Of a stretch of DNA of 39,389 nucleotides, positions 12,958 to 39,389 are shown one piece after another. The notes under the pieces are model-generated. The model did not search any database, was not told the DNA's origin, and saw only the letters and a program-made list of their open reading frames with translations. Position 1 is the stretch's first letter. Every line of letters begins with the position of its first letter. Position numbers and translations under genes: made by a program. This stretch comes from a candidate division WOR-3 bacterium (GTDB taxonomy: Bacteria > SDB-A): assembly GCA_016926475.1 (NCBI GenBank), contig JAFGON010000050.1:1-39389 (forward strand). The letters run 5' to 3'.

Positions 12958-14475
12958 ATGAAGAAGACTTTTTTGTTGCTGACTCTGTGGGTTTTATCTG
13001 CAGGAGTTATTTTTTGTCAGAATGTCAACGGAGACACCACCAGGGTGGACAGAAACATGCTCGTCCTTCGGATCTGGGGGACGCATCAAGAGAGAGGGTT
13101 CGCGTATGGTTACCTTCTTGCACCGAGAATAGGGGATGTGTTTGAGAACTATGTTTTAAGTTATATTTTTTACAACAACGCGTCACTATATGAATCTGCA
13201 AGATCTTTTTATGTAGGCAATTTCTCGGTTTCTCAGGATTATCTCGCCGAGGCAGGGGCTATGATCGATGGTGTTGTGGCAGCCGGTGAGAGCACCTGGT
13301 GCGCTGTTCTGAACAGAGATCTTGATTCGATGGATATTTTGATGGCCAGCGCTATGGATGAGATTGTCGAGGCATTGGAATGCTCCAGCCTTTCTAGCTG
13401 GGGTCCTATGACTCAAAATGACACTATTCTAAACGGATCACTAGTAATAACGAGGATGATGGACTGGACTTCGAATTCGACTCTCAAGGACAACCACCTG
13501 ATTATCGTCAGCATCCCTTCAGAATCCGACGAACAGCCCTGGGTATCGGTCGCCTACTCGGGTTTTATAGCGGCTCTTTCAGCTGTCAACGACAGCGGCT
13601 TGACCTCTTTTAAAAATATGGGAAACTCGCCCGACCACCCCAACCCGACAGACCTCTATCCAGCCTTGATAGCTTCGAGAGACGCTGTCGAGAGCAGAGA
13701 CTTGAATAGCGACGGCAAATGCGATGTCTTCGACGCGGTGAGCGCTTTTAGCTCACACAGATTTTATTGTTCTTCGATAATTCAGGCGACATGCAGTAGA
13801 AACGATACTTTCGCCGCCATAGCGATAGAGTGCGACAACCAGCACGGGGACACTTTCAGAGTCTATTCCCATGATGGGAGTATTCCGCTTTACAATGTCG
13901 TCTGCACAAATCATTTCAGAGCGTTGCAAACTCCCGTGTATTGTTATAGGTATAACAACATAACCGATTCCATCAGGGCAGATTCTTCTGTGACACCTGA
14001 GAGAAGTTGGAAAATTATGTCGGGGGGCGCAGGGGTTTCGAGCAACAATCAGATGATTCAGTGGATCGGCCAGACGAGGACTCTGAAAATCTCTGCGGCT
14101 ACTTCTGATTCGCCGGCATATTTGAGAACACCCGTATCTTTGAACATTGATTCTCTATTCAATGAAACTTTTGTCGAAGAACCCGTTGATAGAGAGGTGG
14201 ATTTTCCCAGGGATTTAAAAGTAAATTTTTATCTGAATCCGCCTTACTTTGAAATACACTATCAAGGTCAGGACCTCGCCAGCTTGGCGTACTCCCTTTT
14301 TGATGCCTCGGGAAGAGTTTTCATTGCAAGAAAGCATTTGGAAGATGGGTTTTCAGGGAGAATAAGTCTATCCGATATGCCTCCTGGAGTTTATTTTCTG
14401 AATATTGAAGGCGAAAGGATTGGCTTTTCAGGTCAAATTTTCCTCATGACCAAAAAAATATTTTCGTTTCGATAA
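12958..14475 (+). CDS. Secreted C45-like Ntn hydrolase with C-terminal sorting-type domain
   Basis: This 505-residue exported protein has a signal peptide at about 1-20 (FLLLTLWVLSAGVIFCQ). The core resembles the C45/acyl-CoA:6-aminopenicillanate acyltransferase-like Ntn hydrolases: GTHQERGFAYGYLLAPRI at the N-terminus; a likely nucleophile C142 in ALECSSLSSWG, followed by LNGSLVITRMMDW (usually the G..l..RN.Dw motif); and VVCTNHFRAL, the family TNHF signature, near 320. Family members are self-processed amidases or acyltransferases; the substrate here is unknown. Residues about 425-505 (YSLFDASGRVFIARKHL, LSDMPPGVYFLNIEGE, IFLMTKK) form a type IX-like tail, so the protein is probably displayed or released outside the cell. 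Its ATG directly follows the upstream stop. Confidence 0.72.
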   Translation: MKKTFLLLTLWVLSAGVIFCQNVNGDTTRVDRNMLVLRIWGTHQERGFAYGYLLAPRIGDVFENYVLSYIFYNNASLYESARSFYVGNFSVSQDYLAEAGAMIDGVVAAGESTWCAVLNRDLDSMDILMASAMDEIVEALECSSLSSWGPMTQNDTILNGSLVITRMMDWTSNSTLKDNHLIIVSIPSESDEQPWVSVAYSGFIAALSAVNDSGLTSFKNMGNSPDHPNPTDLYPALIASRDAVESRDLNSDGKCDVFDAVSAFSSHRFYCSSIIQATCSRNDTFAAIAIECDNQHGDTFRVYSHDGSIPLYNVVCTNHFRALQTPVYCYRYNNITDSIRADSSVTPERSWKIMSGGAGVSSNNQMIQWIGQTRTLKISAATSDSPAYLRTPVSLNIDSLFNETFVEEPVDREVDFPRDLKVNFYLNPPYFEIHYQGQDLASLAYSLFDASGRVFIARKHLEDGFSGRISLSDMPPGVYFLNIEGERIGFSGQIFLMTKKIFSFR

Positions 14476-27742: not shown

Positions 27743-30700
27743 ATGAACGGGGAAATATTTAAGAAAATTGCCGAAGAATTGGGGAAAAGCACTTCGAACC
27801 GAATTTCGAGATCGAGCGCATCTGAACTGGCTTTGTATATTTCGAGTCTTTTCTATTGCCGGGAAAAAAGTGTTCTCGTTGTTCTCGATGATGAAAAGGA
27901 AGTCGAAAAGGTATTTTCTGATGTTTTTGTGATAACTGGTGTTATACCTGAAATTTTCTCTAAATGGGACAAGTCGATTCCCGGAGAGTTTTCTCCGTCG
28001 CCTGACATCGTCGGAAGAAGGCTGAATTTTATCTCGGGAATCGGCACCGGGAAGAGGAGCATCTATCTGACCGACACCAAATCTTTCAAAGAAAAGGTGC
28101 CTTCTCCTGAAAGAATTCAGGCTTTTTCAACGGTATTGAATGCAGGGCAGAAAATCCAAACAGAGAAATTCTCGAGATTCTTGATCAGTTCAGGGTACAC
28201 TTTGGAGACAAACACTATTAACCCCGGAGAGTATTCGATAAGAGGTGGAATAATAGACGTGTTCTCACCAGCGGAAAGCTTTCCTGCGAGAATCGAATTG
28301 TTCGGAGAAGACGTCGAAGATATAAGGATTTACGAACCTTCAAAAGGAAAAAGCATCAAAAGCGTCGAAGAATACAGGGTGTTTCCTGCCAGGGAAATAA
28401 TGCTTTTCGAAGATGAAATTGAAAAGCTGAAAGCCGAGTATCCAGAATATCCGGATGCATTTATTTTTGGCGGCGAGACAATTGCCTCGAGTTTAAGAAA
28501 ACACGATGTCCCCCTAAAAGATTTAAAATTTGACGGTCTGGTTTTAACCGAGTCTGAAAGTGAAAATTCTTCAGCGTCGATCGATTGGGGAACAGGTTTT
28601 GCCTCTTTTCTTGATTTAGGCATAGATAAAATTGAAAGCAAATCAATAGAAAGCGAATACGAAGATTTTCGAATGTTTTTTTTCGTGAGATCCCAATCTC
28701 TATCTAAAGCGTTGAAAAAATATTATCCAGAGGCTGATTTCATCGGTAAACCATTAAGTTCCGGTTTTGCATTAAATATCGCGAAAGCGCTTTTTATAAC
28801 TGAAAAAGAACTCTTCGGGCACGAACCGAGGCTGATAGGTAAAAACGAAAGGGAGAAGTTCTTTTTAAAGGAGGAAATTGAATTTTTACCTTTGGGAAGT
28901 TATGTTGTCCACGAAGAATCCGGAATAGCCAAGTATAGAGGGATAAAAACAATAGAAAACGCGGGACAAAACACAGAGTATCTAATACTTGAATACGCTG
29001 ACGAAGCTTTTTTGTATTTACCTGTCCACAAGCTACACCTTGTAACCCGTTACATTGGACCAAAAGATAGCTCTGAACCTAAATTGAGCAATTTGGGCTC
29101 TTCAAGATGGCTTGAAAAAAAGCGACGGGCAAAAAAACAGATCTGGGACATGACAATTGAGCTGGCTCAGCATTACGCCGTGAGAAAAGCTTCAAAAGCC
29201 CCTTCCGTTGAAATCGACGACGAATTACGTCAATCACTTTCTCAGACTTTTGAGTTCGAGGAGACTCCTGACCAGCTTAAAGCCATAAATGACGTGTACA
29301 CTGATCTTTCAAGCTCAAAACCAATGGATCGGCTGATCTGCGGAGAAGTTGGTTTTGGGAAAACCGAGGTGGCTATCAGGGCTGCTATGAAGTCAGCCAA
29401 CAGCGGGTTTCAAACGGCTGTTCTGGTGCCTACAACGGTTTTATGCCAGCAACACTTAGAAGTATTCAGGAGAAGGCTTGAAGATTATCCTCTAAAAATC
29501 GAAATGCTGAGCAGGTTTGTCAGCAGGGAAGGTGCGAAAAAGGTATTGGAAAATGTCGCTCTTGGAAAGACGGACATAGTTGTCGGGACGCACAGACTTT
29601 TGTCGAAAGATGTTGTTTTCAAGAATTTGGGACTTTTGGTGGTGGATGAAGAACACAAATTCGGTGTTAAGCAGAAAGAGAAGTTGAGAAAAATCAAAAA
29701 AAATGTCAACACCCTCATGATGAGTGCGACTCCGATACCGAGAACTCTTCACATGTCTCTCTGGAACCTGATGGATGTCAGTCAGATCAACACACCCCCT
29801 CCCGGCAGAATGCCTATAGAAACTTCGATAATTCCGTTTTCCGAAAAAGTCATAAAAGACGCGGTTTATTTCGAAGTGGAAAGAGGTGGGCAGGTGTTTT
29901 TTCTACACAACAGAATCGACAGCCTGCAAGCAGTGGAGGTCTACTTGAAAAAAATCTTTCCGGACGTGACCATGAAAAGTTGTCACGGGAGGATGTCGAG
30001 CGCTCAAATAGAAAAGATAATGATTGAATTCTACGACCACGAGTTCGACATGTTGATATCGACGACAATAATTGAATCTGGTCTGGACATAAAAAACGCC
30101 AACACTTTAATTGTCGACAGGGCGGACACGTTAGGATTAGCTCAGCTTCACCAGATAAGGGGAAGAATAGGAAGAAGCGATGTCCGTGCTTATTGTTATT
30201 TTATGATACCGAGAAAAGGGCCGAAAACTGACAGCGGAAGGGAGAGGTTGAAGGCGATACGATCTTACGCCAGACTCGGCGCCGGTTACCAGCTTGCACT
30301 TCACGACATGAAAATAAGAGGCGTGGGAAATCTTCTTGGTAAAGAACAGTCGGGGTACGATTTTGATATCGGATACGAACTTTACATGAAATATCTCGAA
30401 GAAGCTGTCGAAAAAGTCAGAGCTGAAAAAGGTCATGAAAAAGAGATAACACACGAAATATGGGCCGATTTTCCGTATTACATTCCGCCGGAATACGTCA
30501 AAGACGTCAACGAGCGTGTATACCTTTACAGGAAAATCGCGGCGGCAGACCTATCTGGACTCGACGAAATAAAATCCGAAGTCAGAGACAAATTCGGCCC
30601 GCTTCCGGATTCAGCAAAGATTTTTTTTGAAATCTCAACACTCTACAGGTTGCTGAAAAACACCTTGATAACATCTCTCGCACTCGCAGAATCGGTAAAA

Positions 30701-30892
30701 ATTCAATTTGCAAAGGACCCTGAAAGGTGGTATATTGAAAAACTTGTTTTTAACTTGCCTAAAGATTGGCGTCCTCATTTCAGAAGAGACGATGAAAGAG
30801 AATTACTCGTCGAAATAAAAGGATGGAATCGGAATTTAAAATCTTTGCGCAGATTGCTTGAAGCATTGAATATGGACGGTGAAAATTTATGA
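27743..30892 (+). CDS. mfd: Transcription-repair coupling factor Mfd
   Basis: This 1049-residue protein is slightly shorter than the E. coli form (1148). Mfd frees RNA polymerase stalled at DNA lesions and recruits UvrA. The UvrB-like N-terminal module (about 1-230) includes GEYSIRGGIIDVFSP. The polymerase-interaction domain starts at LPLGSYVVHEESGIAKYRGI near 390. The SF2 translocase follows: ICGEVGFGKTEVAIRAA (Walker A, K540), VVDEEHKFGVKQKEKL (DEEH box), MSATPIPRTLHMSLW, STTIIESGLDIKNANTLIVDRAD, and GQLHQIRGRIGRS-like QLHQIRGRIGRS. The C-terminal TRCF domain ends the protein. The start ATG has no strong ribosome binding site. Its stop overlaps the next gene by four bases. Confidence 0.96.
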   Translation: MNGEIFKKIAEELGKSTSNRISRSSASELALYISSLFYCREKSVLVVLDDEKEVEKVFSDVFVITGVIPEIFSKWDKSIPGEFSPSPDIVGRRLNFISGIGTGKRSIYLTDTKSFKEKVPSPERIQAFSTVLNAGQKIQTEKFSRFLISSGYTLETNTINPGEYSIRGGIIDVFSPAESFPARIELFGEDVEDIRIYEPSKGKSIKSVEEYRVFPAREIMLFEDEIEKLKAEYPEYPDAFIFGGETIASSLRKHDVPLKDLKFDGLVLTESESENSSASIDWGTGFASFLDLGIDKIESKSIESEYEDFRMFFFVRSQSLSKALKKYYPEADFIGKPLSSGFALNIAKALFITEKELFGHEPRLIGKNEREKFFLKEEIEFLPLGSYVVHEESGIAKYRGIKTIENAGQNTEYLILEYADEAFLYLPVHKLHLVTRYIGPKDSSEPKLSNLGSSRWLEKKRRAKKQIWDMTIELAQHYAVRKASKAPSVEIDDELRQSLSQTFEFEETPDQLKAINDVYTDLSSSKPMDRLICGEVGFGKTEVAIRAAMKSANSGFQTAVLVPTTVLCQQHLEVFRRRLEDYPLKIEMLSRFVSREGAKKVLENVALGKTDIVVGTHRLLSKDVVFKNLGLLVVDEEHKFGVKQKEKLRKIKKNVNTLMMSATPIPRTLHMSLWNLMDVSQINTPPPGRMPIETSIIPFSEKVIKDAVYFEVERGGQVFFLHNRIDSLQAVEVYLKKIFPDVTMKSCHGRMSSAQIEKIMIEFYDHEFDMLISTTIIESGLDIKNANTLIVDRADTLGLAQLHQIRGRIGRSDVRAYCYFMIPRKGPKTDSGRERLKAIRSYARLGAGYQLALHDMKIRGVGNLLGKEQSGYDFDIGYELYMKYLEEAVEKVRAEKGHEKEITHEIWADFPYYIPPEYVKDVNERVYLYRKIAAADLSGLDEIKSEVRDKFGPLPDSAKIFFEISTLYRLLKNTLITSLALAESVKIQFAKDPERWYIEKLVFNLPKDWRPHFRRDDERELLVEIKGWNRNLKSLRRLLEALNMDGENL

Positions 30893-32544
30893 AAAAAACA
30901 ATTTTTCTTGTTTTGTTGCCGGTTTTAATAGGGTGTAGAAATGAAGTCGTTTTGGTTAGAATAGACGGCGAACCCGCTTTATCTCAAAGCGACATACCCG
31001 AATACGCCTTTTATCTTCCGGAAGATTCTTTCTTCTATTTACTCGATTCCATGACTGAAGCAAAACTCATCCTTCTGGCAGCTGAGGAAGAGAATTTTCC
31101 GCAACTGATTAACTCCGACATCGAAGACCTGAAAAGAATTCTAATTATCGATTCGCTCTGGGATTCAATCCAAGACAGCCTCTTGGCGGAGCATGATTCT
31201 CTCGCCTACAAATACTGGGAATGGTCCCAGATTTTGGTCAGGACTTTTCTCGTCAGGCTTCCTCCCGGAAGGCAAAAGGAAGCTCGCGATATAGCCGATT
31301 CTATTGAGATTTTCATGGGTGATTCTCTGATGTTGAAAAAATACGTGGATGAAGTCTGCGACAGGTACAATTTCAAAGGCTTGTATTTTGGCCCTTCAGG
31401 AGACTTAAGGGATATTTTCCCATACGTGGTCTCTTATAGTCTGGCAGAAGAGTTGGTTGACATGGAAGATATGTCTGTTTCTGAACCCATCGTCACAGAC
31501 ACGGGCATTTTTATTTTGGCGAAAATCAAAAGCATCCCTACAACTGATTTTTACGATTTTGAAGAGGTTAAAGAAAACCTGAAAATGCAGGAAAAATTCA
31601 GGTTTTTAGCCGAACAGAGCAATAGGATGATAGACAAGTTGAGAAGAGAGACAGATATAACTTTCAACGGAGAAATTTTCGACTTGTTTTCAAAATTTCC
31701 GCATTTTGAGAGAGTTTTGGAAGAAGAACCTATTGTTTTACCTGACCTCGACAGTGTTGTTTTCAACCAGTGGATAGCTGTAGCTGGAGAAGACACGGTT
31801 TTTGTGCGCGACATGCTAGACAAAATAAAATCAGGAAGAGTTCTTTACCCCGATCTGTCCGACACTTCATTTCTCCGCTTTTTCCTTATGAGAGATGTGA
31901 TGCCGCCTTATCTTCTGATTCAAGAAGCCCTGAGAAGAGGAATAGCACTTGAAGGAAACCTTGGGTCGAGGTTTGAGAAACTCAGGGATTCTCTAGTTTA
32001 TGAATCGTATATCGCCTCTCATACTGGAATCCAGGCTGATTCACAGGAAGTTTACGCTTATTACCTTTCAAACCCCGGTTATTTTTCCATACCGGAAAGG
32101 CAGGAATTGTTCATAATAGGAACTGCCGATTCTCTTTTCATGGATGAACTTTTGGATTCAGTTTCCCAGGGCGTGCCCTTTGAAACACTGGCGACGAGGT
32201 ATTCTGTTCTTCCGTCAGCTCAAAACGGAGGCGATCTCGGTTACGTGACGAGGGGAAGGTACAGAGAGGAAATTGAAAATTTGATTTTCTCGTTGGAACC
32301 ACAGAGCGTTTCTCATCCGATTTTGCTGGATGGTTATTGGGTGTTGTTCAAGACGGGACTATACAAACCCGATTCTTTGCTGCCTTTCACAAATGTTTTT
32401 GAAAGGTGCAGAAATCTGTACCAATCAGAATTACGTTCTCAAATGACAAGTTTTATATTGGAGACCAAAGGTTTGAAAAACAGGGTTGAAATTGACAGTT
32501 CAGCCCTGAGAAATCTTTTAAGAGGAAAAAAGGAGGAAATATGA
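30889..32544 (+). CDS. Predicted lipoprotein with SurA/parvulin-type peptidyl-prolyl isomerase domain (1 of 4)
   Basis: This is a 551-residue envelope protein. A lipoprotein signal ends in VLIGC with Cys16 as lipidation site and Arg-Asn after it, which does not retain it in the inner membrane under the enteric Lol rule. The SurA-like helical N-domain spans about 20-150. A poorly conserved parvulin-like region lies at about 130-230. A clearer PpiC/parvulin domain is at 380-490 (YYLSNPGYFSIPERQELFII, VPFETLATRYS, NGGDLGYVTRGRY, LEPQSVSHPILLDGYWVLFK). It probably helps fold or escort outer-membrane proteins. The ATG lies in the ATGA overlap with mfd, so it depends on translation of mfd. Isomerase activity is unproven. 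Confidence 0.8.
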   Translation: MKKTIFLVLLPVLIGCRNEVVLVRIDGEPALSQSDIPEYAFYLPEDSFFYLLDSMTEAKLILLAAEEENFPQLINSDIEDLKRILIIDSLWDSIQDSLLAEHDSLAYKYWEWSQILVRTFLVRLPPGRQKEARDIADSIEIFMGDSLMLKKYVDEVCDRYNFKGLYFGPSGDLRDIFPYVVSYSLAEELVDMEDMSVSEPIVTDTGIFILAKIKSIPTTDFYDFEEVKENLKMQEKFRFLAEQSNRMIDKLRRETDITFNGEIFDLFSKFPHFERVLEEEPIVLPDLDSVVFNQWIAVAGEDTVFVRDMLDKIKSGRVLYPDLSDTSFLRFFLMRDVMPPYLLIQEALRRGIALEGNLGSRFEKLRDSLVYESYIASHTGIQADSQEVYAYYLSNPGYFSIPERQELFIIGTADSLFMDELLDSVSQGVPFETLATRYSVLPSAQNGGDLGYVTRGRYREEIENLIFSLEPQSVSHPILLDGYWVLFKTGLYKPDSLLPFTNVFERCRNLYQSELRSQMTSFILETKGLKNRVEIDSSALRNLLRGKKEEI

Positions 32545-34265
32545 AAAAATATCTGACGATCATTTTCATTCCGGTAATATTGATTCTGACTTCCTGCACA
32601 GGAAAACCGAAAGTTATCGACAGGGACACGCTTTTGATATCTATCGGCGACGATAACATGAAAAGAGAGATTGGGATCGTCGAAGTCAGAGCAAATTTCT
32701 TTTCTTACGAAGGTGAATCCCCAGACACAGCAATAATGAGACTCAACCAGGTCGTGGACAACCTCATAGAGACGCATATACTGGGGCTGGGAGCTCAAGC
32801 CGCGGGTATGCTTGATGACAGCACTGCAGTTTACACGATTGAAATGGCTAGAGAAAACAGCGTTTTAGGAGAACTTTACTGGCAGGTAGTCATAAACAGA
32901 GCTGTTGTTGACTCTTTGGAAATTGTCAAGATGTGGGAAGACATGGCTCAGGAAATCTGGTGCAAACACATACTTTTAAACGACAGTACGCTCGCAGACA
33001 GTGTTTACAAAATTCTGGCCGAAAAATGGGAAACTCCAGATAGGGACAGCCTTTTCAACGAAATGGTCCAACTCTATTCTCAAGACCAGGGGACGAAACC
33101 GATAGGAGGAGACCTTGACTATTTCACAAAAGGCAGAATGGTAAAACCTTTCGAAGACGCCGCTTTCGCGATGGCGGACGGTCAGTTGTCGGAACCGGTG
33201 AAAACCGATTTTGGATGGCATTTGATATACCGAATATCCGCCAGGGAAAACATGAGAAGAAGACCTCTTGAAGAATCATACTTGCAGTTGAAAGCCATGA
33301 AGGAACAGGAACTCCAGAGAGAACTGGCCGACAACTACATTGACAGTTTGAAAAATGCTTTCAACGTGCAGGTGCAAGAACCGGGGTTCAGCGTCCTGTT
33401 CAAAAAAATGGAAGCGGGTAGTTCAGCTAACCCGTTTGGCGCTCCTCCGGTAGAATTTTCAGAAGAAGAGAAATCGCTACTGTTTTTAACCTACGGAGAC
33501 GTAGAAGTCACTTTAGGGAATCTCAAAGCCAAACTCGACGAGAGAAAGTGGATACTTCCTTATTTCACCCAGGACACTGTCATGTTCAGAAAGAACTGTG
33601 AAAACATAGTTCTGACTGATATGCTGATGGTAGCGGCGCTGGAATTGAAAATAGACAAACTCCCGGTCGTGGAGAGAAACGTGTATGCTCAAGTTGACAG
33701 AACTTATTCATGGCAGTTTGTCGAAGACTCCATAAAGAAAAATGTAGTAGTGGAAGATCGGGATCTTCTTTCGTATTATGAAAGCAACCCCCAGGAATTT
33801 ACTCTTCCGGAGAGAAGAAGAGCCAGGCTGATAGAGATGACGACCCTCGATTCTCTTCAAAACGCGGTTTTACCGCAGTTGCGTAGAGGTGACACTGTCA
33901 GATTTGACACCCTGGCCAAGCTTAACTCCATTCATTTCTCTTCGAGAAGCGGTGGCAGATTGGGCTTGTTCCCTCGCGGAAGGTACCCAGCTTTTGACTC
34001 TGTCATTTTCTCCATGACCGAAATTGGAAGCATATCCGATCCTTTCGCTGTCGACAGCGGACATTTTTCTGTTGTCATGCTCGAAGAAGTCATACCCGAA
34101 ACCCTTCTTTCTTTTGAAGAGGTAAAAACGAGAATAGACGGAAACTTGAGAATATCAAAAACGGATTCCATCAAATTAATCGTCCTTGAAGACCTAAGGG
34201 CTAAATTTAAAATTGACACGGTTTCGAATTACGAAATGCTTTTAAAACAGATAATCGGTGAATAA
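32541..34265 (+). CDS. Predicted lipoprotein with two parvulin-type peptidyl-prolyl isomerase domains (2 of 4)
   Basis: This 574-residue envelope protein has a lipobox ILTSC with Cys19. An N-terminal SurA-like helical part is followed by one parvulin domain at about 130-235 (EIWCKHILLNDSTLADSVYKIL, YSQDQGTKPIGGDLDYFTKGRMVKPFEDAAFAM, SEPVKTDFGWHLIYRI), which matches the family well. A second domain at about 405-515 (LPERRRARLIEMTTLDSLQN, SSRSGGRLGLFPRGRYPAFDSVIFSM, DPFAVDSGHFSVVMLEE) is also recognisable. It overlaps the previous gene by four bases (ATGA), with GGAGG upstream. It is the strongest parvulin member of the four. Confidence 0.86.
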   Translation: MKKYLTIIFIPVILILTSCTGKPKVIDRDTLLISIGDDNMKREIGIVEVRANFFSYEGESPDTAIMRLNQVVDNLIETHILGLGAQAAGMLDDSTAVYTIEMARENSVLGELYWQVVINRAVVDSLEIVKMWEDMAQEIWCKHILLNDSTLADSVYKILAEKWETPDRDSLFNEMVQLYSQDQGTKPIGGDLDYFTKGRMVKPFEDAAFAMADGQLSEPVKTDFGWHLIYRISARENMRRRPLEESYLQLKAMKEQELQRELADNYIDSLKNAFNVQVQEPGFSVLFKKMEAGSSANPFGAPPVEFSEEEKSLLFLTYGDVEVTLGNLKAKLDERKWILPYFTQDTVMFRKNCENIVLTDMLMVAALELKIDKLPVVERNVYAQVDRTYSWQFVEDSIKKNVVVEDRDLLSYYESNPQEFTLPERRRARLIEMTTLDSLQNAVLPQLRRGDTVRFDTLAKLNSIHFSSRSGGRLGLFPRGRYPAFDSVIFSMTEIGSISDPFAVDSGHFSVVMLEEVIPETLLSFEEVKTRIDGNLRISKTDSIKLIVLEDLRAKFKIDTVSNYEMLLKQIIGE

Positions 34266-34276
34266 AGAGGTGCAAT

Positions 34277-35161
34277 TTGAAAAGGCTAATATATTTGATT
34301 TTGGCTTTGGCTTTTTTGGTTTCATGTTCCAAAGATGACCGGCAAAACATACCTCAAGACACTGTTGACGCAGGGGATATTTCTGCCCGTGGTTTCATAA
34401 TGGACGATGACACTTCGACTCTCATAGCGGTTGTAAACGGGAAAAACGTCAGATACGCCCCTTTTAGATCTTACATGATCAACATGCTCGGCATAGACCC
34501 TGACACCTTTTCGTCTGAAATTGTTTCGAGTGTCCTTCAGACTTGGCTTTCAAGGGAAGCTGTATACGATGTCGGTGTGCAAGAAGGATACGAAAAAGAT
34601 TCAATTTACATATTTATGGAGTTCGACGCCACGAGACAGATCATTTCTCAAATGGTTTTGGAAAGGCTGACGCTCTCGATGCCGGGGGTCAGTGAAAACG
34701 AGATAAGAAGCGCTTACGATAAATGGAAAGAAGAAATAAAATACGAAAAGAAAGTGGTTTTGTACCAATTCTTCAGCGAAACGATGGCTACAATAGCCAG
34801 AGATAAAATCCTTGAAGGAGTCGAAGATACTCTGGTGCCGAACCTGGTAGGACTTGACACTGTTGAAGGGATCAGGAGACTTTATTCCAACATGGAATTG
34901 ATTGAAGAAGCTGTCGCGAATCTGAAATCGGGAGAAGTAAGCGAACCCTTCAGCGTCGGAGATGGTTATTTCGTAGCTAAAGTAATTGAAGAAAAATACA
35001 TTGAATCTCCAATGACGCCTTATGAGCAGATCAGGCCTTACATAATGCTATACCTCACTGAGTTGAACAAATACGACTACCTGAACAGTTTTGTCGACAC
35101 TCTTCTTCAGAACAATGTGACCATTTTCGACGACAGCATTAAGTTGAGGGTGAGTAATTGA
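34277..35161 (+). CDS. Predicted lipoprotein related to SurA/parvulin proteins (3 of 4)
   Basis: This 294-residue protein has a lipobox FLVSC with Cys17 and starts at TTG with AGAGGTG upstream. After a SurA-like helical N-domain (VVNGKNVRYAPFRSYMINMLG, EAVYDVGVQEGYEKDS, MPGVSENEIRSAYDKWKEEIKYEKKVVLYQFF) comes one degenerate parvulin-like region at about 155-240 ending LKSGEVSEPFSVGDGYFVAKVIEEK. The LKSGEVSEPF-x-x-G-x-x-x-x-K pattern is the C-terminal half of a parvulin, but the catalytic front half is weak, so it may be a chaperone without isomerase activity. The gene is separated from the previous stop by 11 bases and overlaps the next by four. Confidence 0.74.
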   Translation: MKRLIYLILALAFLVSCSKDDRQNIPQDTVDAGDISARGFIMDDDTSTLIAVVNGKNVRYAPFRSYMINMLGIDPDTFSSEIVSSVLQTWLSREAVYDVGVQEGYEKDSIYIFMEFDATRQIISQMVLERLTLSMPGVSENEIRSAYDKWKEEIKYEKKVVLYQFFSETMATIARDKILEGVEDTLVPNLVGLDTVEGIRRLYSNMELIEEAVANLKSGEVSEPFSVGDGYFVAKVIEEKYIESPMTPYEQIRPYIMLYLTELNKYDYLNSFVDTLLQNNVTIFDDSIKLRVSN

Positions 35162-36483
35162 AAATATTTTCAACGATCTTCCTGTTTTTTCTGCTCTCGG
35201 CATCTCTTTCGTCCGCAAACGCTGATGAAATTATATCTATCGTAGAGAAAGAAGCCGTGACGAGAACAGAACTTGAGACGTATATGAAAACGTCGATCTT
35301 TTTCATTGGGGGATTTGAACTTCCCAATAAAAGACTCCAGGAAGAATTTGAAAAAGAAAGGTACGAAAATCTTTTAAACATTTATCTTGTACTGAATTCA
35401 GGCGACACCACAGGAATTTTAGACGTGTCGCCTGAAGCTGTAGAAGAAGAATTTATGGTTTTGCTCGGAGATTTGGCTTATGGAATAACCGGTGATTCGA
35501 CAATGGTTGATTCAATAAGCGCGTATTTTTCCCAAGCCGGTATCGACTGGATATTGGCCAAAGAATTATTACGAAAAGAGTTCTATTTCAAAATAGCCGC
35601 TGAAAGGTATGTTTCTTTTTCCCATCCGGATCTTACAAATTTTGATAATTACTGGGTCTCTGAAGATATCCTCCGAGAGCTATACGAAGAAATCAAGGAC
35701 AGCCTCAGCGCCCCTGTTGCATACAGTTTCTCAAGAATCGTCCTCATGACAATCCCGTCTGAAAAATGGCTCATGGAAGTGAACTCCAAAGCGGCGACTA
35801 TCATGCAAGCTCTGAGTTCAGGAGAAGACTTCAGGACTCTCGCTTCCATATACAGCGACGATTCAGAGGGGAGAGCCAACGGAGGATACCTTGGAATAGT
35901 GAAAAGAGGCGAACTAAACCCTGAGGTAGAAAACGCCATTTTTTCAATTGAGACAGGAACAGCCGGTTTTGCTCAAAGCCCGGCGGGTCTGCATGTATTG
36001 TACGTACCCATGAAATGGGCTGACAGTGCAAAAGTCTACGAGATTTTTATTTCTTTGCTTCCCAAAAGAGAAGACACACTTAAAACTCTCGCGGACTTGG
36101 ACGAAGTCATGAAACTTCTTCACGATGGGACTCCTTTTGAAGAAGTCGCGAAAAGGTATTCAAACGACCAATTCACCAAAGACGACGGGGGATTTCTGGA
36201 AAATGTACCAGCTGAGTCTCTCGATGTGTCCTTGAGATCGATTCTCGATATGCTCCAACCCGGTGAATTCACCGAACCGATTCCTTCACCTTTCGGCTTC
36301 ATTGTTTTAAAACTCGAAGGGGTTGTCCTTGGAGAACAGGAGTCATACGAGTCTTTCAAAGACCGTATAAAAGAGATTCACCTTCTCAGGGAAAGACAAA
36401 CCGCGATAGAAAAATGGTTGGAAGAGCTTGAAAACAGCCTCTACGTCTGGCAAAGAGATTCTGTTCTGACAAATGAGAATTGA
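35158..36483 (+). CDS. surA: SurA-like periplasmic parvulin chaperone (4 of 4)
   Basis: This 441-residue protein has a cleavable signal peptide (FSTIFLFFLLSASLSSANA, then DEIISIV) and no lipobox. EIISIVEKEAVTRTELETYM is the usual SurA N-domain start (vd-x-I-v-a-v-V-n-x-x-v-I-t). Two parvulin domains follow: about 185-285 (AYSFSRIVLMTIPSEKWLME, YSDDSEGRANGGYLGIVKRGELNPEVENAIFSI) and about 292-395 (YEIFISLLPKREDTLKTL, YSNDQFTKDDGGFLENVPAES, PGEFTEPIPSPFGFIVLKLEG). SurA carries unfolded outer-membrane proteins through the periplasm. The start is TTG in a TTGA overlap with the preceding stop, with GAGGGTGAG upstream; the length is close to E. coli SurA (428). Confidence 0.9.
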   Translation: MKIFSTIFLFFLLSASLSSANADEIISIVEKEAVTRTELETYMKTSIFFIGGFELPNKRLQEEFEKERYENLLNIYLVLNSGDTTGILDVSPEAVEEEFMVLLGDLAYGITGDSTMVDSISAYFSQAGIDWILAKELLRKEFYFKIAAERYVSFSHPDLTNFDNYWVSEDILRELYEEIKDSLSAPVAYSFSRIVLMTIPSEKWLMEVNSKAATIMQALSSGEDFRTLASIYSDDSEGRANGGYLGIVKRGELNPEVENAIFSIETGTAGFAQSPAGLHVLYVPMKWADSAKVYEIFISLLPKREDTLKTLADLDEVMKLLHDGTPFEEVAKRYSNDQFTKDDGGFLENVPAESLDVSLRSILDMLQPGEFTEPIPSPFGFIVLKLEGVVLGEQESYESFKDRIKEIHLLRERQTAIEKWLEELENSLYVWQRDSVLTNEN

Positions 36484-36962: not shown

Positions 36963-39389
36963 ATGAGAAAGTTTTTTTTAGCTCTTTTTTTCCCGGTGAT
37001 TTTGTCGGCTCAGACCTATAACTTGTCCCCTTCTTCTACCTACGTTGAAGTGACCCAGTCAAACTTTTCTTTTGTCGGACTGACGGCGGGTTTTGACATG
37101 GTCACTGTATCTCAGCGAACCGAAAACAGTCAAAATTATTCCGTGATCACTATAGAAAACACCCACAGCTCGGGAAGATTGGGTGAGCCTCAAATTCCTG
37201 TCATTAGGAGAATAATTGAAATCCCGAGCGGTTCGCAAGTTGCTTTAAGCGCTACTTCCCGCGGAGAAATTGACGCTTTTTTGACCGTACCTCTTTTCCC
37301 AAACCAACCTTCCCTCGAAAAGGTTCCCGGAGCCGTTGCTCCTTTCACGATAGACAGAAACGCCTATGGTGAAAACCGGGTTTACGGCGAAGAATTGGCG
37401 AGGATCGTTGATGATGGATACATAAGAGGACACAGGTTTGTCACGGTGGAGATTTTCCCGGTCCGGTATGAACCTTATTCTGGAAAATTGACTATGCGAG
37501 AAAATATCGATTTAGAACTGATTCTGACGGGTTCTGATCCCGCTCTTACAAGGTCCAATTACGAGAGGTATTACAACAAAGAGTTTGAAGCATTTTTGAA
37601 AATGTCTGTTCTAAATTCGTTCGCATACGGAGAGACGGATTATCCGGATCTTCCGACAGGATACCTCATAATAGTTCCCGATGTGCTCGCTTCAAATTTA
37701 GATGTTTTTGTGCAGTGGAAAGAGAGGAAAGGATACGATGTAACCGTCGCGCTGAAATCACAAGTCGGCACGACCAACACCGCCATAAAAAACTATATTC
37801 AAAACGCTTACGACAACTGGCCTGTCCCTCCAGCGTATGTTCTTCTCGTTGGTGACGACGAAATACCCGCGTTCACTGGAGGTGAATCCAACGCTATAAC
37901 AGACCACCCCTACGGACAGCTTCAGGGAGGAGACCTTTTCCACGAAGTGTGGCTTGGCAGGTTTTCGGTGACAAATTCGTCACAGCTTGCCAACATAATA
38001 GAGAAAACTTTAAATTACGAACAACCTTCTATCTGGACGCAAGGAAACACGTGGTGCAAAAAAGCTGTCTTCATGGCGAGCAGCGACAACCATACTGTAT
38101 CTGAAGGAAGCCACAGATATGTAGTTCAGACTTATTTGGGCCCCGCGGGGTTTGTCTGCGACACACTCTGGTATTACCATGGGGCGACGACCGCGCAGGT
38201 CAGTTCTGCATTCAACGACGGACGTTCATGGGGAGTCTATTCCGGGCATGGAGGTACGACGAGCTGGGCTGATGGTCCGCCTTTCTCGCAGGCTAACGTC
38301 AACGCCCTTACCAACGTCAGTGAATACCCGATAGTGATGAGCTTTGCCTGCAACACAGGACAATGGTCTGTGGGCGAGTGTTTCGCGGAGACATGGATAA
38401 GAGCTGGTGACAAAGCCGGCGTCAGTTTCTGGGCTTCCGCCCCTTCTTCTTACTGGACTGAAGACGACACTCTCGAAAGATGGATTTTTCATGCGATTTT
38501 CGATTCTACTGTGACATGGCAGAGGGGTTTTTACGACTACGGTCTTCTCGGCGTCTATACTTACGGAGGAACATATGTCCCTCCCCAGTATTACTATGAG
38601 GCTTACAACCTGTTTGGAGATCCCTCGATTGACGGATGGACGGACTATCCAAATGCCCTCTCCACTAATTATCCGTCGTCGATACCCGTGGGTTCAATCG
38701 ACGTGCAGGTCACCGTAAATACGGCGAAAGCCCCGGCGCACAACGCTCTCGTTTGCCTTAAAAATGATGATTCGACTTGGGTCGGTTACACAAATTCATC
38801 TGGCGTAGCGACAATCCATGTCAATAACATAGCTCCTTGTTCGCTCTTGGTGACCGTCACCGGGCATAATCTCGATCCTCATTTTGGAACGATATACGTC
38901 ATTTCAAGCGGAGCTTACGTGAGCTATCTCAGATATATACCAGATGGTAACGGACAGGTAAACCCTGGAGAGACTCTAAACTTAAGTGTTTGGCTCAAAA
39001 ACTGGGGAACTCAGACAGCGCACAATGTCGTCGGCTCAATTTCATCTTCAGATCCGAATATTACAATAAATCAAAACACAGTCAACTACGGGACTATCAA
39101 CGCCGGTGATTCATCACTTGGATCAGGAAATTTCAACGTGACTACAGCCTCGGGTCTTGAAGATGGATACACGATACCTATGACGATGACCATATCTGCC
39201 ACGGAGAGCACCTGGGTCAGCAATTTCAGCTTTACGGTAAATGCTCCGGTTTTGGAAGCGACGGGCTACTACGGTCCTTCCGAAGTGATGCCCGGGGACA
39301 CGGTTGTATTCGGACCCATGCTTGAGAATTCAGGCAGCGGGAACGCCTACACGGTTCAGGCACGGCTTCGCTGCATCAGCAAGGATCCC
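36963..39389 (+). CDS. Secreted gingipain-like C25 family cysteine peptidase, 3' end outside window
   Basis: The frame is open from the ATG at 36963 to the window edge (809 residues seen), so the C-terminus is missing. AGGAGG precedes the ATG. A signal peptide covers about 1-17 (FFLALFFPVILSA, then QTY). An N-terminal prodomain-like beta region (VEVTQSNFSFVGLTAGFD, LGEPQIPVIRRIIEIPSG) is followed by the C25 catalytic domain: YLIIVPDVLASNLDVFVQWKERKGYDV, VLLVGDDEIPAF, YSGHGGTTSW with likely catalytic H429, and SFACNTGQW with likely catalytic C463 (34 apart, similar to gingipain), then NLFGDPSIDGW. Ig-like/CARDB-type domains follow (about 570-809, including DGNGQVNPGETLNLSVWLKN). It should be exported and act outside the cell; a sorting tail may follow beyond the window. 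Confidence 0.9.
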   Translation, partial: MRKFFLALFFPVILSAQTYNLSPSSTYVEVTQSNFSFVGLTAGFDMVTVSQRTENSQNYSVITIENTHSSGRLGEPQIPVIRRIIEIPSGSQVALSATSRGEIDAFLTVPLFPNQPSLEKVPGAVAPFTIDRNAYGENRVYGEELARIVDDGYIRGHRFVTVEIFPVRYEPYSGKLTMRENIDLELILTGSDPALTRSNYERYYNKEFEAFLKMSVLNSFAYGETDYPDLPTGYLIIVPDVLASNLDVFVQWKERKGYDVTVALKSQVGTTNTAIKNYIQNAYDNWPVPPAYVLLVGDDEIPAFTGGESNAITDHPYGQLQGGDLFHEVWLGRFSVTNSSQLANIIEKTLNYEQPSIWTQGNTWCKKAVFMASSDNHTVSEGSHRYVVQTYLGPAGFVCDTLWYYHGATTAQVSSAFNDGRSWGVYSGHGGTTSWADGPPFSQANVNALTNVSEYPIVMSFACNTGQWSVGECFAETWIRAGDKAGVSFWASAPSSYWTEDDTLERWIFHAIFDSTVTWQRGFYDYGLLGVYTYGGTYVPPQYYYEAYNLFGDPSIDGWTDYPNALSTNYPSSIPVGSIDVQVTVNTAKAPAHNALVCLKNDDSTWVGYTNSSGVATIHVNNIAPCSLLVTVTGHNLDPHFGTIYVISSGAYVSYLRYIPDGNGQVNPGETLNLSVWLKNWGTQTAHNVVGSISSSDPNITINQNTVNYGTINAGDSSLGSGNFNVTTASGLEDGYTIPMTMTISATESTWVSNFSFTVNAPVLEATGYYGPSEVMPGDTVVFGPMLENSGSGNAYTVQARLRCISKDP

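Follow-up and report, generated by a model that had tools for sequence, protein, structure and literature searches.

The best described relatives of the proteins reported here are chaperones of the SurA and PrsA types. SurA, represented by structures from E. coli (1m5y) and of a Bacteroides PPIase (8hm3/8hm4), has a signal peptide, an N-domain, two parvulin domains and a C-terminal region, and the SurA Bt3848 of a Bacteroides is reported to co-purify with BamA (PMC12578637). PrsA, PEB4 and PpiC are foldases, either lipoproteins or periplasmic, that resemble the present proteins in an N-domain, one parvulin domain, a C-terminal helix and the lipid anchor. In C. difficile, prsA2 lies directly 3' of mfd (PMC6288519). 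A Skp-type chaperone is known in a type IX translocon (PMC10994853), and the portions of the translocon literature at hand name SkpA, SprE, PorD and a PPI subunit and no SurA set. There, SkpA, which is homologous to Skp and differs in this from the four proteins reported here, and the PPI subunit of the SprA translocon are folding helpers linked with type IX secretion. The open-access literature searched described no tandem SurA/parvulin set and no link with SprA.

The window analysed, a 39,389-nucleotide stretch from a candidate division WOR-3 bacterium, carries four such genes, A to D, in tandem (30889-36483) downstream of mfd. The junctions are ATGA (a 4-base overlap) between mfd and A, ATGA between A and B, an 11-base gap between B and C, and TTGA between C and D, as a first-pass annotation made from the DNA had described. 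Because the first ATGA joins mfd to A, the coupling takes in mfd. Scans for promoters and terminators gave counts close to those of shuffled sequence.

Features of the mfd-A-B-C-D-C25 region of the window
Feature	Coordinates	Strand	Length and start	Evidence or remark
mfd (transcription-repair coupling factor)	27743..30892	+		TIGR00580, 890 bits (cut-off 800); upstream partner of A
A, two-unit SurA-like predicted lipoprotein	30889..32544	+	551 aa, ATG	Pfam, hhalign, AF2, Foldseek, lipobox
B, two-unit SurA-like predicted lipoprotein, two parvulins	32541..34265	+	574 aa, ATG	Pfam, hhalign, lipobox
B, first parvulin domain (residues 137-245)	32949..33275	+		catalytic residues kept
C, one-unit SurA-like predicted lipoprotein, degenerate parvulin	34277..35161	+	294 aa, TTG	Rotamase_2, hhalign, AF2, Foldseek, lipobox
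D, predicted soluble exported SurA, two parvulins	35158..36483	+	441 aa, TTG	Pfam, PDB matches, signal peptide without lipobox
C25 peptidase, incomplete (runs off the window)	36963..39389	+		PF01364, 7e-58; conserved neighbour within the phylum

Pfam and profile comparison place all four among the SurA/PrsA-type proteins, and for A and C the predicted fold agrees. Parvulin matches above the curated Pfam cut-off number one in A (419-488), two in B and two in D (Rotamase, 97.8 bits); C has Rotamase_2 alone above cut-off (37.1 bits, cut-off 27). In hhalign comparisons, both A and B matched the B-type profile Bx at 100% over nearly their full length. The B type has an internal repeat (Bxn-Bxc 100%, 1.2e-38), and the halves of A matched those of Bx at 98.4% and 99.7%, while the halves of B itself, compared through profiles of just four sequences, reached no more than 12.8%. 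The case of C is less direct. Within this phylum alone its profile is weakly related to A, B and D (20%, 29% and 0.6%) and its best PDB sequence match had an E of 0.42, but it is tied to the set through C and B types from other phyla (C-Cx 98.5%, C-Bx 98.8%). The predicted folds of A (AF2 pLDDT 75, two repeated units) and C (pLDDT 63, a low-confidence model) are nearest to PrsA, PEB4 and SurA, and the top Foldseek matches of C are SurA/PrsA-like. In a VIA comparison, where the absence of a family from the lists does not exclude that family, the low-confidence C model matched 6vj6 (Z 10.3, rmsd 9.1 over 200) with an N-domain and one parvulin fold. We therefore rejected the idea of members without relation to SurA: C is weak in Pfam and PDB searches, but profiles and predicted fold place it. 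The first-pass claims of common descent and of one- and two-domain members agree with these data.

D is a classic two-parvulin SurA type by domain make-up. Its sequence matched 8hm4 (1.3e-13) and E. coli SurA 1m5y (8.8e-11), and SurA structures matched it over 185-430 and 215-430. Because D scored 50 bits against the E. coli-type SurA equivalog NF008038, whose curated cut-off is 394, we file it as a SurA-type protein only and not as that equivalog. Unlike described SurA, D has parvulins without the full catalytic set and lies after mfd beside three lipoprotein paralogues. PrsA, PEB4 and PpiC are the counterparts of C and of the separate halves of A and B, with the differences that a single chain of A or B contains two units and that the parvulins of C and A are degenerate. 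In A the first parvulin is a mere remnant and the second is recognisable but without the catalytic His. C is a single unit whose parvulin has no GG loop and no His at either place, so we do not class it as an active PPIase. Degenerate members had been suspected from the DNA, and here they are.

Among all members, the full catalytic set (His, Asp, GG, Phe, GWH) is kept solely in the first parvulin of B, where the catalytic His, Asp/Cys, Phe and His stand at the places taken to correspond to those of Pin1 in 4/4 genomes of the phylum. This residue pattern suggests that most of the parvulin domains would serve as binding modules, with proline isomerisation left to the first domain of B. Lipoboxes are present in A (Cys16), B (Cys19) and C (Cys17), each in 4/4 genomes; the Cys column of B is nearly invariant across 15 sequences and Cys17 of C is invariant in 9/9 aligned C types. 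D has no lipobox in any of the four genomes, and its signal peptide was judged by eye. The proposed split into three lipid-anchored proteins and one soluble protein is therefore borne out by the lipoboxes; the anchored members may, as was also proposed, face the periplasm from the outer membrane.

The order A-B-C-D-C25 is kept in 4/4 genomes of the phylum. Mfd lies directly 5' of A in three of these, rather than four, because the G001 contig ends just before A. Across the whole genome, seven Rotamase matches fall in five frames (A, B, D, one on C82 and one on C57) and Rotamase_2 adds C, so that four of the six parvulin genes found are consecutive, which is far beyond chance.

According to the first-pass annotation, such genes usually number one or two per bacterium and are scattered, which does not match our survey. 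We searched 154 genomes, of which 138 had Mfd at E<=1e-130, and read 132 flanks (120, nine other-phylum loci, two from the same phylum and the window), five of them too short; flank reading left out G052, G025, G051, G098 and G115, and in G001 Mfd is on another contig. With parvulins called by a home-made profile trained partly on these loci, parvulin genes lay directly 3' of mfd in 55 of the 124 other-phylum genomes with readable flanks, and two or more stood there in tandem in 33. Relatives therefore hold these genes in tandem rather than scattered singly. B-C-D-like sets follow mfd in other phyla, the C and D types being recognisable there by profile. B-C-D is the shared core, and the set described here enlarges an arrangement that is widespread. 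In Bacteroidota (L264-L273) a PPIase, a ~290-aa lipoprotein and SurA occur in the identical order B'-C'-D', and profile comparison links C' with the C type (Cx-Cb 99.9%, 4.3e-31; C-Cb 94.1%). This trio differs in being away from mfd and without A, and in B', unlike B, the two clear parvulins lie side by side and the signal peptide has no lipobox. The four-gene form is not unique, since locus L074 has mfd and four such genes.

At L074 the extra gene is that locus's own duplicate, its two B-type genes being each other's closest relatives (100/100 support). This would fit recent, redundant duplication, with interchangeable members kept for dosage. We find that explanation very unlikely for A to D, because A and B form separate, well supported clades kept in 4/4 genomes, the order, lipoboxes and patterns of catalytic-residue loss are conserved, and the C and D types persist across phyla. 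The branch position of A among the B types is weakly supported (53/90). B-C-D would be the old core cassette, to which A was added as a two-unit paralogue.

A new finding is that, across phyla, the two-parvulin form goes together with SprA, the translocon protein of type IX secretion. Strong SprA matches (above the TIGR04189 cut-off; weak ones are below it at E<=1e-10) occurred in 18/20 genomes with the two-parvulin form vs 2/43 with the single-parvulin form, under class rules set once the SprA result was known, although the domain counts themselves predate that result. Genome-wide, with D and B profiles whose sequences all came from SprA genomes, a bias in favour of such genomes, the matches listed (ending near 6e-36 and 4e-40) include a full-length D type in 36/39 SprA-strong vs 2/100 SprA-free genomes and a full-length B type in 25/39 vs 2/100. 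The SprA-strong genomes without full-length D among these matches are G081, G108 and G128, and G016 and G064 have full-length D despite having no SprA. Some SprA-free genomes (e.g. G088, G087, G050) have frames of 412-540 aa with partial D matches outside the full-length rule.

The correlation is entangled with phylogeny. In an Mfd tree made by FastTree, which has many weak forks, most SprA-strong genomes with two-parvulin sets cluster together; the correlation largely follows deep clades and may have shared ancestry as its cause. This grouping would suit general outer-membrane chaperones, with D as the SurA for BAM and A to C as helper holdases, as would the full-length D of G016 and G064, the 297-330 aa gene plus D' retained by SprA-free Bacteroidota (L280, L281, L282) and the reported co-purification of Bt3848 with BamA (PMC12578637). 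By contrast, genomes that have no SprA carry B-type genes far more rarely (2/100, among the matches listed), and G041, which stands beside SprA-free genomes with single-parvulin sets in the tree, combines a two-parvulin gene with a weak SprA match. We regard this explanation as plausible, though we lean slightly against it.

We consider it likely that lipid-anchored holdases and a soluble SurA together feed outer-membrane assembly. A to D form one paralogous set, which would act as periplasmic chaperones of the SurA/PrsA type expressed with mfd. D would move freely in the periplasm, carrying unfolded outer-membrane and secreted proteins, and the anchored members would catch and hold such proteins near the assembly machinery, with handover between members. 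The clients would be outer-membrane barrels generally; because the enlarged set is found almost only in SprA genomes, the very large SprA barrel and the cargo of type IX secretion are probably among them. The set might instead serve the folding of SprA itself, a chain of ~1,700-2,400 aa that would need extra holdase capacity. SprA frames of that size do track the two-unit B type, but 14/39 SprA-strong genomes have no full-length B among the matches listed, and we think this narrower role improbable.

Apart from SkpA, little is known, to our knowledge, of the chaperones that serve type IX secretion in the periplasm. Should the SurA set be among them, named genes become testable in model Flavobacteria, and the widespread mfd-parvulin gene order and the orphan lipoprotein would be accounted for. 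If it is not, SprA bacteria still rely on several SurA-family members, some of them lipid-anchored, instead of one SurA. A bolder proposal, which we hold only tentatively and rather doubt, is that the two-unit lipoproteins A and B, the degenerate C and the SurA D form a so far unnamed module that evolved with the SprA translocon in many phyla as a station, anchored in the membrane, where SprA and its cargo are kept waiting, and that the Bacteroidota orphan ~290-aa lipoprotein beside SurA belongs to it.

The first-pass annotation had also suggested a dedicated type IX relay, in which the anchored members would hold CTD-bearing cargo and hand it to SprA/PorV. The circumstantial part of this stands: the genome has SprA, found in 4/4 genomes of the phylum, with 65 Por_Secre_tail and ten C25 matches, the two-parvulin form tracks SprA across phyla, the C25 gene is conserved as a neighbour in 4/4 genomes, and a Skp-type chaperone is already described for a type IX translocon (PMC10994853). 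A dedicated relay fits less well with the C-D pair of SprA-free Bacteroidota, the co-purification of Bt3848 with BamA and a correlation that largely follows deep clades. The other points given above in favour of general chaperones bear against it too, and the portions of translocon literature at hand name other helpers. We judge such a relay unlikely. The cargo genes are scattered through the genome; the C25 gene 3' of D is one of the ten and the single one adjacent.

Rereading the sequence, we found the four ORFs and their junctions exactly as the first-pass annotation had described them, as four SurA/parvulin-like envelope genes in tandem (A to D). The first ATGA is the mfd/A junction; it couples mfd to A, and the unit is therefore mfd-A-B-C-D. 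Each of the four proteins has a parvulin domain over curated Pfam cut-offs. The order A-B-C-D and then a C25 peptidase gene is kept in all four genomes of the source's phylum, with mfd immediately 5' of A in three; in the fourth (G001) the contig stops just before A. About 480 bases separate D from the C25 gene in the window, and in every locus read the contig ends inside this gene. Two more parvulin genes lie elsewhere in the source genome (G000; see table).

Locations of the cluster genes and of other features discussed
Feature	Location	Remark
A	window 30889-32544 (+)	
B	window 32541-34265 (+)	
C	window 34277-35161 (+)	
D	window 35158-36483 (+)	
C25 peptidase gene	window 36963-39389; compared loci L016, L017, L018	3' of D in 4/4 genomes
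505-aa ORF	window 12958-14475	terminal type IX sorting domain Por_Secre_tail (match 14230-14412)
Parvulin gene outside cluster	G000:C82:32166-32363	655-aa frame
Parvulin gene outside cluster	G000:C57:51200-51406	543-aa frame
MoxR-type AAA ATPase gene	Bacteroidota locus L264 5539-6492	317 aa; 3' of SurA

By sequence, D is a SurA match: its best solved-structure matches were 8hm4/8hm3 (titled PPIase and PPIase-BfUbb complex; 1.3e-13), and E. coli SurA was matched at 8.8e-11. A and B matched PrsA-type parvulins, and Rotamase_2 was the sole Pfam family over cut-off in C (6.3e-9). In profile-profile comparisons with counterparts from other phyla, both A (100%, 1.4e-38) and B (100%) matched B types over nearly their full length, C matched C types (98.5%, 3.8e-15) and B types (98.8%), and D matched D types (100%). 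Within B types, one half matches the other (100%, 1.2e-38) and both halves match the C type; a B-type protein is therefore two PrsA/SurA-like units in a single chain. Own-phylum sequences alone (n = 4) gave no half-half match (A halves 3.8%, B halves 12.8%). As read from the profiles, C is one PrsA/SurA-like unit, and D combines one N-domain and two parvulins.

Related parvulin proteins were present in the input alignments of the structure models of A and C and may bias them parvulin-ward; in the A model (mean pLDDT 75) the succession of a strand pair, helices, a parvulin and a long helix is present twice. Its best Foldseek matches were PrsA 4wo7 (3.2e-8), PEB4 and SurA. The A model aligned to 6vj4 with VIA Z 16.4 (rmsd 12.3 over 202 residues) and its second parvulin to 6xd8 with VIA Z 15.4 (rmsd 1.9 over 93). 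The C model is weak (mean pLDDT 63, pTM 0.39). Its best Foldseek match was 3nrk (1.6e-7), the first 36 matches were parvulin-type chaperones/foldases throughout, as we take 3nrk and 9a7d to be, and 6vj6 gave VIA Z 10.3 (rmsd 9.1 over 200).

At the Pin1-type places, for which we assume Pin1 numbering, His, Asp, GG, Phe and the final His occur together in the first parvulin of B only (4/4 genomes). The first parvulin of D keeps the Asp and the final His and lacks the first His. The second parvulins of D, B and A, as well as C, are without both His, and the first parvulin of A is a C-terminal remnant only. A rule-based scan, which overlooks relaxed lipoboxes and may give matches from wrong starts, found a lipobox in A, B and C in 4/4 genomes and in D in 0/4. 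When sequences were compared across phyla, B types (n = 15) had a nearly invariant anchor Cys and C types (n = 9) an invariant one.

We surveyed 154 genomes, 150 of them outside the source's phylum at one per family, and found Mfd in 138. Among 127 readable 3' flanks, the same-strand parvulin chain directly after mfd had no genes in 69, one in 22, two in 23, three in 10 and four in 3, and all three four-gene chains were from the source's phylum. Outside it, at least one parvulin gene followed mfd in 55/124 and two or more in 33/124. Between mfd and spoVT, C. difficile carries prsA2 (PMC6288519). A trio like B-C-D (two-unit, one-unit, SurA) follows mfd in G009, G076 and G060, and with a wider gap in G139; that of G006 is not beside mfd. 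One compared genome (L074) has mfd with four such genes (577, 612, 285 and 430 aa). A, B and the L074 pair form distinct clades in a tree, and the L074 quartet therefore arose independently. The gene set is real, conserved and ordinary in kind, and a few lineages have it in an enlarged form.

Ten of 20 fetched Bacteroidota loci (L264-L273) encode first a protein of 522-700 aa in which two parvulins are clear (B'), next one of 281-302 aa and then SurA, the last gene being cut by the contig end in L269. A locus titled Bacteroidetes bacterium (L274) shares this order, and its middle protein gives a weak parvulin match. As far as L275 and L283 were read, B' is present there and no SurA gene comes after it. 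L276 and L277 come from a single genome, at two distinct positions; in L278 a 609-aa gene with a weak match precedes SurA, and L279-L282 are without B'. No Pfam family reached cut-off in the four middle proteins run (L264, L265, L281, L268). By profile comparison the middle-protein family matched C types from other phyla (99.9%, 4.3e-31), and 11/15 carry a lipobox by rule. Several other loci have a 317-321 aa gene at the place of the L264 MoxR-type ATPase gene, which was assigned by Pfam on the L264 copy.

SprA, the type IX translocon barrel, was found in the source genome and in 4/4 genomes of its phylum. The source genome has 65 Por_Secre_tail matches in 2.15 Mb and 10 C25 matches; one ORF with this sorting domain lies in the window. 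Across the survey, SprA occurred in 54/154 genomes, over the TIGR04189 cut-off (strong) in 39 and otherwise weak (E<=1e-10), in frames mostly of ~1,700-2,400 aa. Nearly all 54 represent different families, so the translocon extends far beyond Bacteroidota. Outside the source's phylum, where 5 flanks were too short to class, a two-parvulin gene follows mfd in 20 genomes, of which 18 had strong SprA, 1 weak and 1 none. Those with single-parvulin genes only (n = 43) had 2 strong, 3 weak and 38 none, and those with no parvulin gene there (n = 61) had 10, 11 and 40. Strong SprA differed between the two- and single-parvulin classes (Fisher p 1.3e-11, with genomes treated as independent, though related). 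Genome-wide, with D and B profiles built from SprA genomes only, a full-length D-type match occurred in 36/39 SprA-strong, 2/15 weak and 2/100 SprA-free genomes, and a B-type match in 25/39, 0/15 and 2/100. Eight SprA-free genomes (G088, G087, G050, G140, G075, G008, G115, G148) have 412-540 aa frames with partial matches, which may be two-parvulin proteins overlooked by the full-length rule. In a FastTree of Mfd (60 rows, many weak forks), one region contains many SprA-strong genomes and a different one the SprA-free single-parvulin genomes. The source's phylum, G056, G151 and G028 are placed elsewhere, and G041 (two-parvulin gene, weak SprA) is among SprA-free genomes. The tie to SprA was unexpected and is a correlation as counted, before phylogeny correction.

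The anatomy is compatible with a holdase set: three anchored members, their parvulins probably mainly non-catalytic and one member isomerase-competent judging by its residues, plus a soluble SurA. The most likely job of such a set would be feeding BAM, and SprA and its cargo would be likely clients in these lineages. We infer the membrane side, the clients and any handover between members. The first-pass annotation had raised a dedicated relay for outer-membrane or type IX cargo. B' was read in 13 Bacteroidota genomes (L264-L273, L275, L277, L283) and SprA is in all 13; some SprA genomes, for example L279, are also without B' beside SurA, and the SprA-free genomes (n = 3) are too few to decide this tie. 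These three, from 31 named genomes searched, are all Bacteroidota (Alistipes L116, Bacteroidales L106 and L138). Their loci (L280-L282) have a 297-330 aa gene 5' of SurA and no B' there, yet all three genomes have a D-type SurA frame, which argues against a role in type IX secretion only. So does the co-purification of the SurA Bt3848 with BamA (PMC12578637). The authors of the translocon structure describe the skpA operon as retained in Bacteroidota without type IX, which is therefore a precedent for dual use (PMC10994853).
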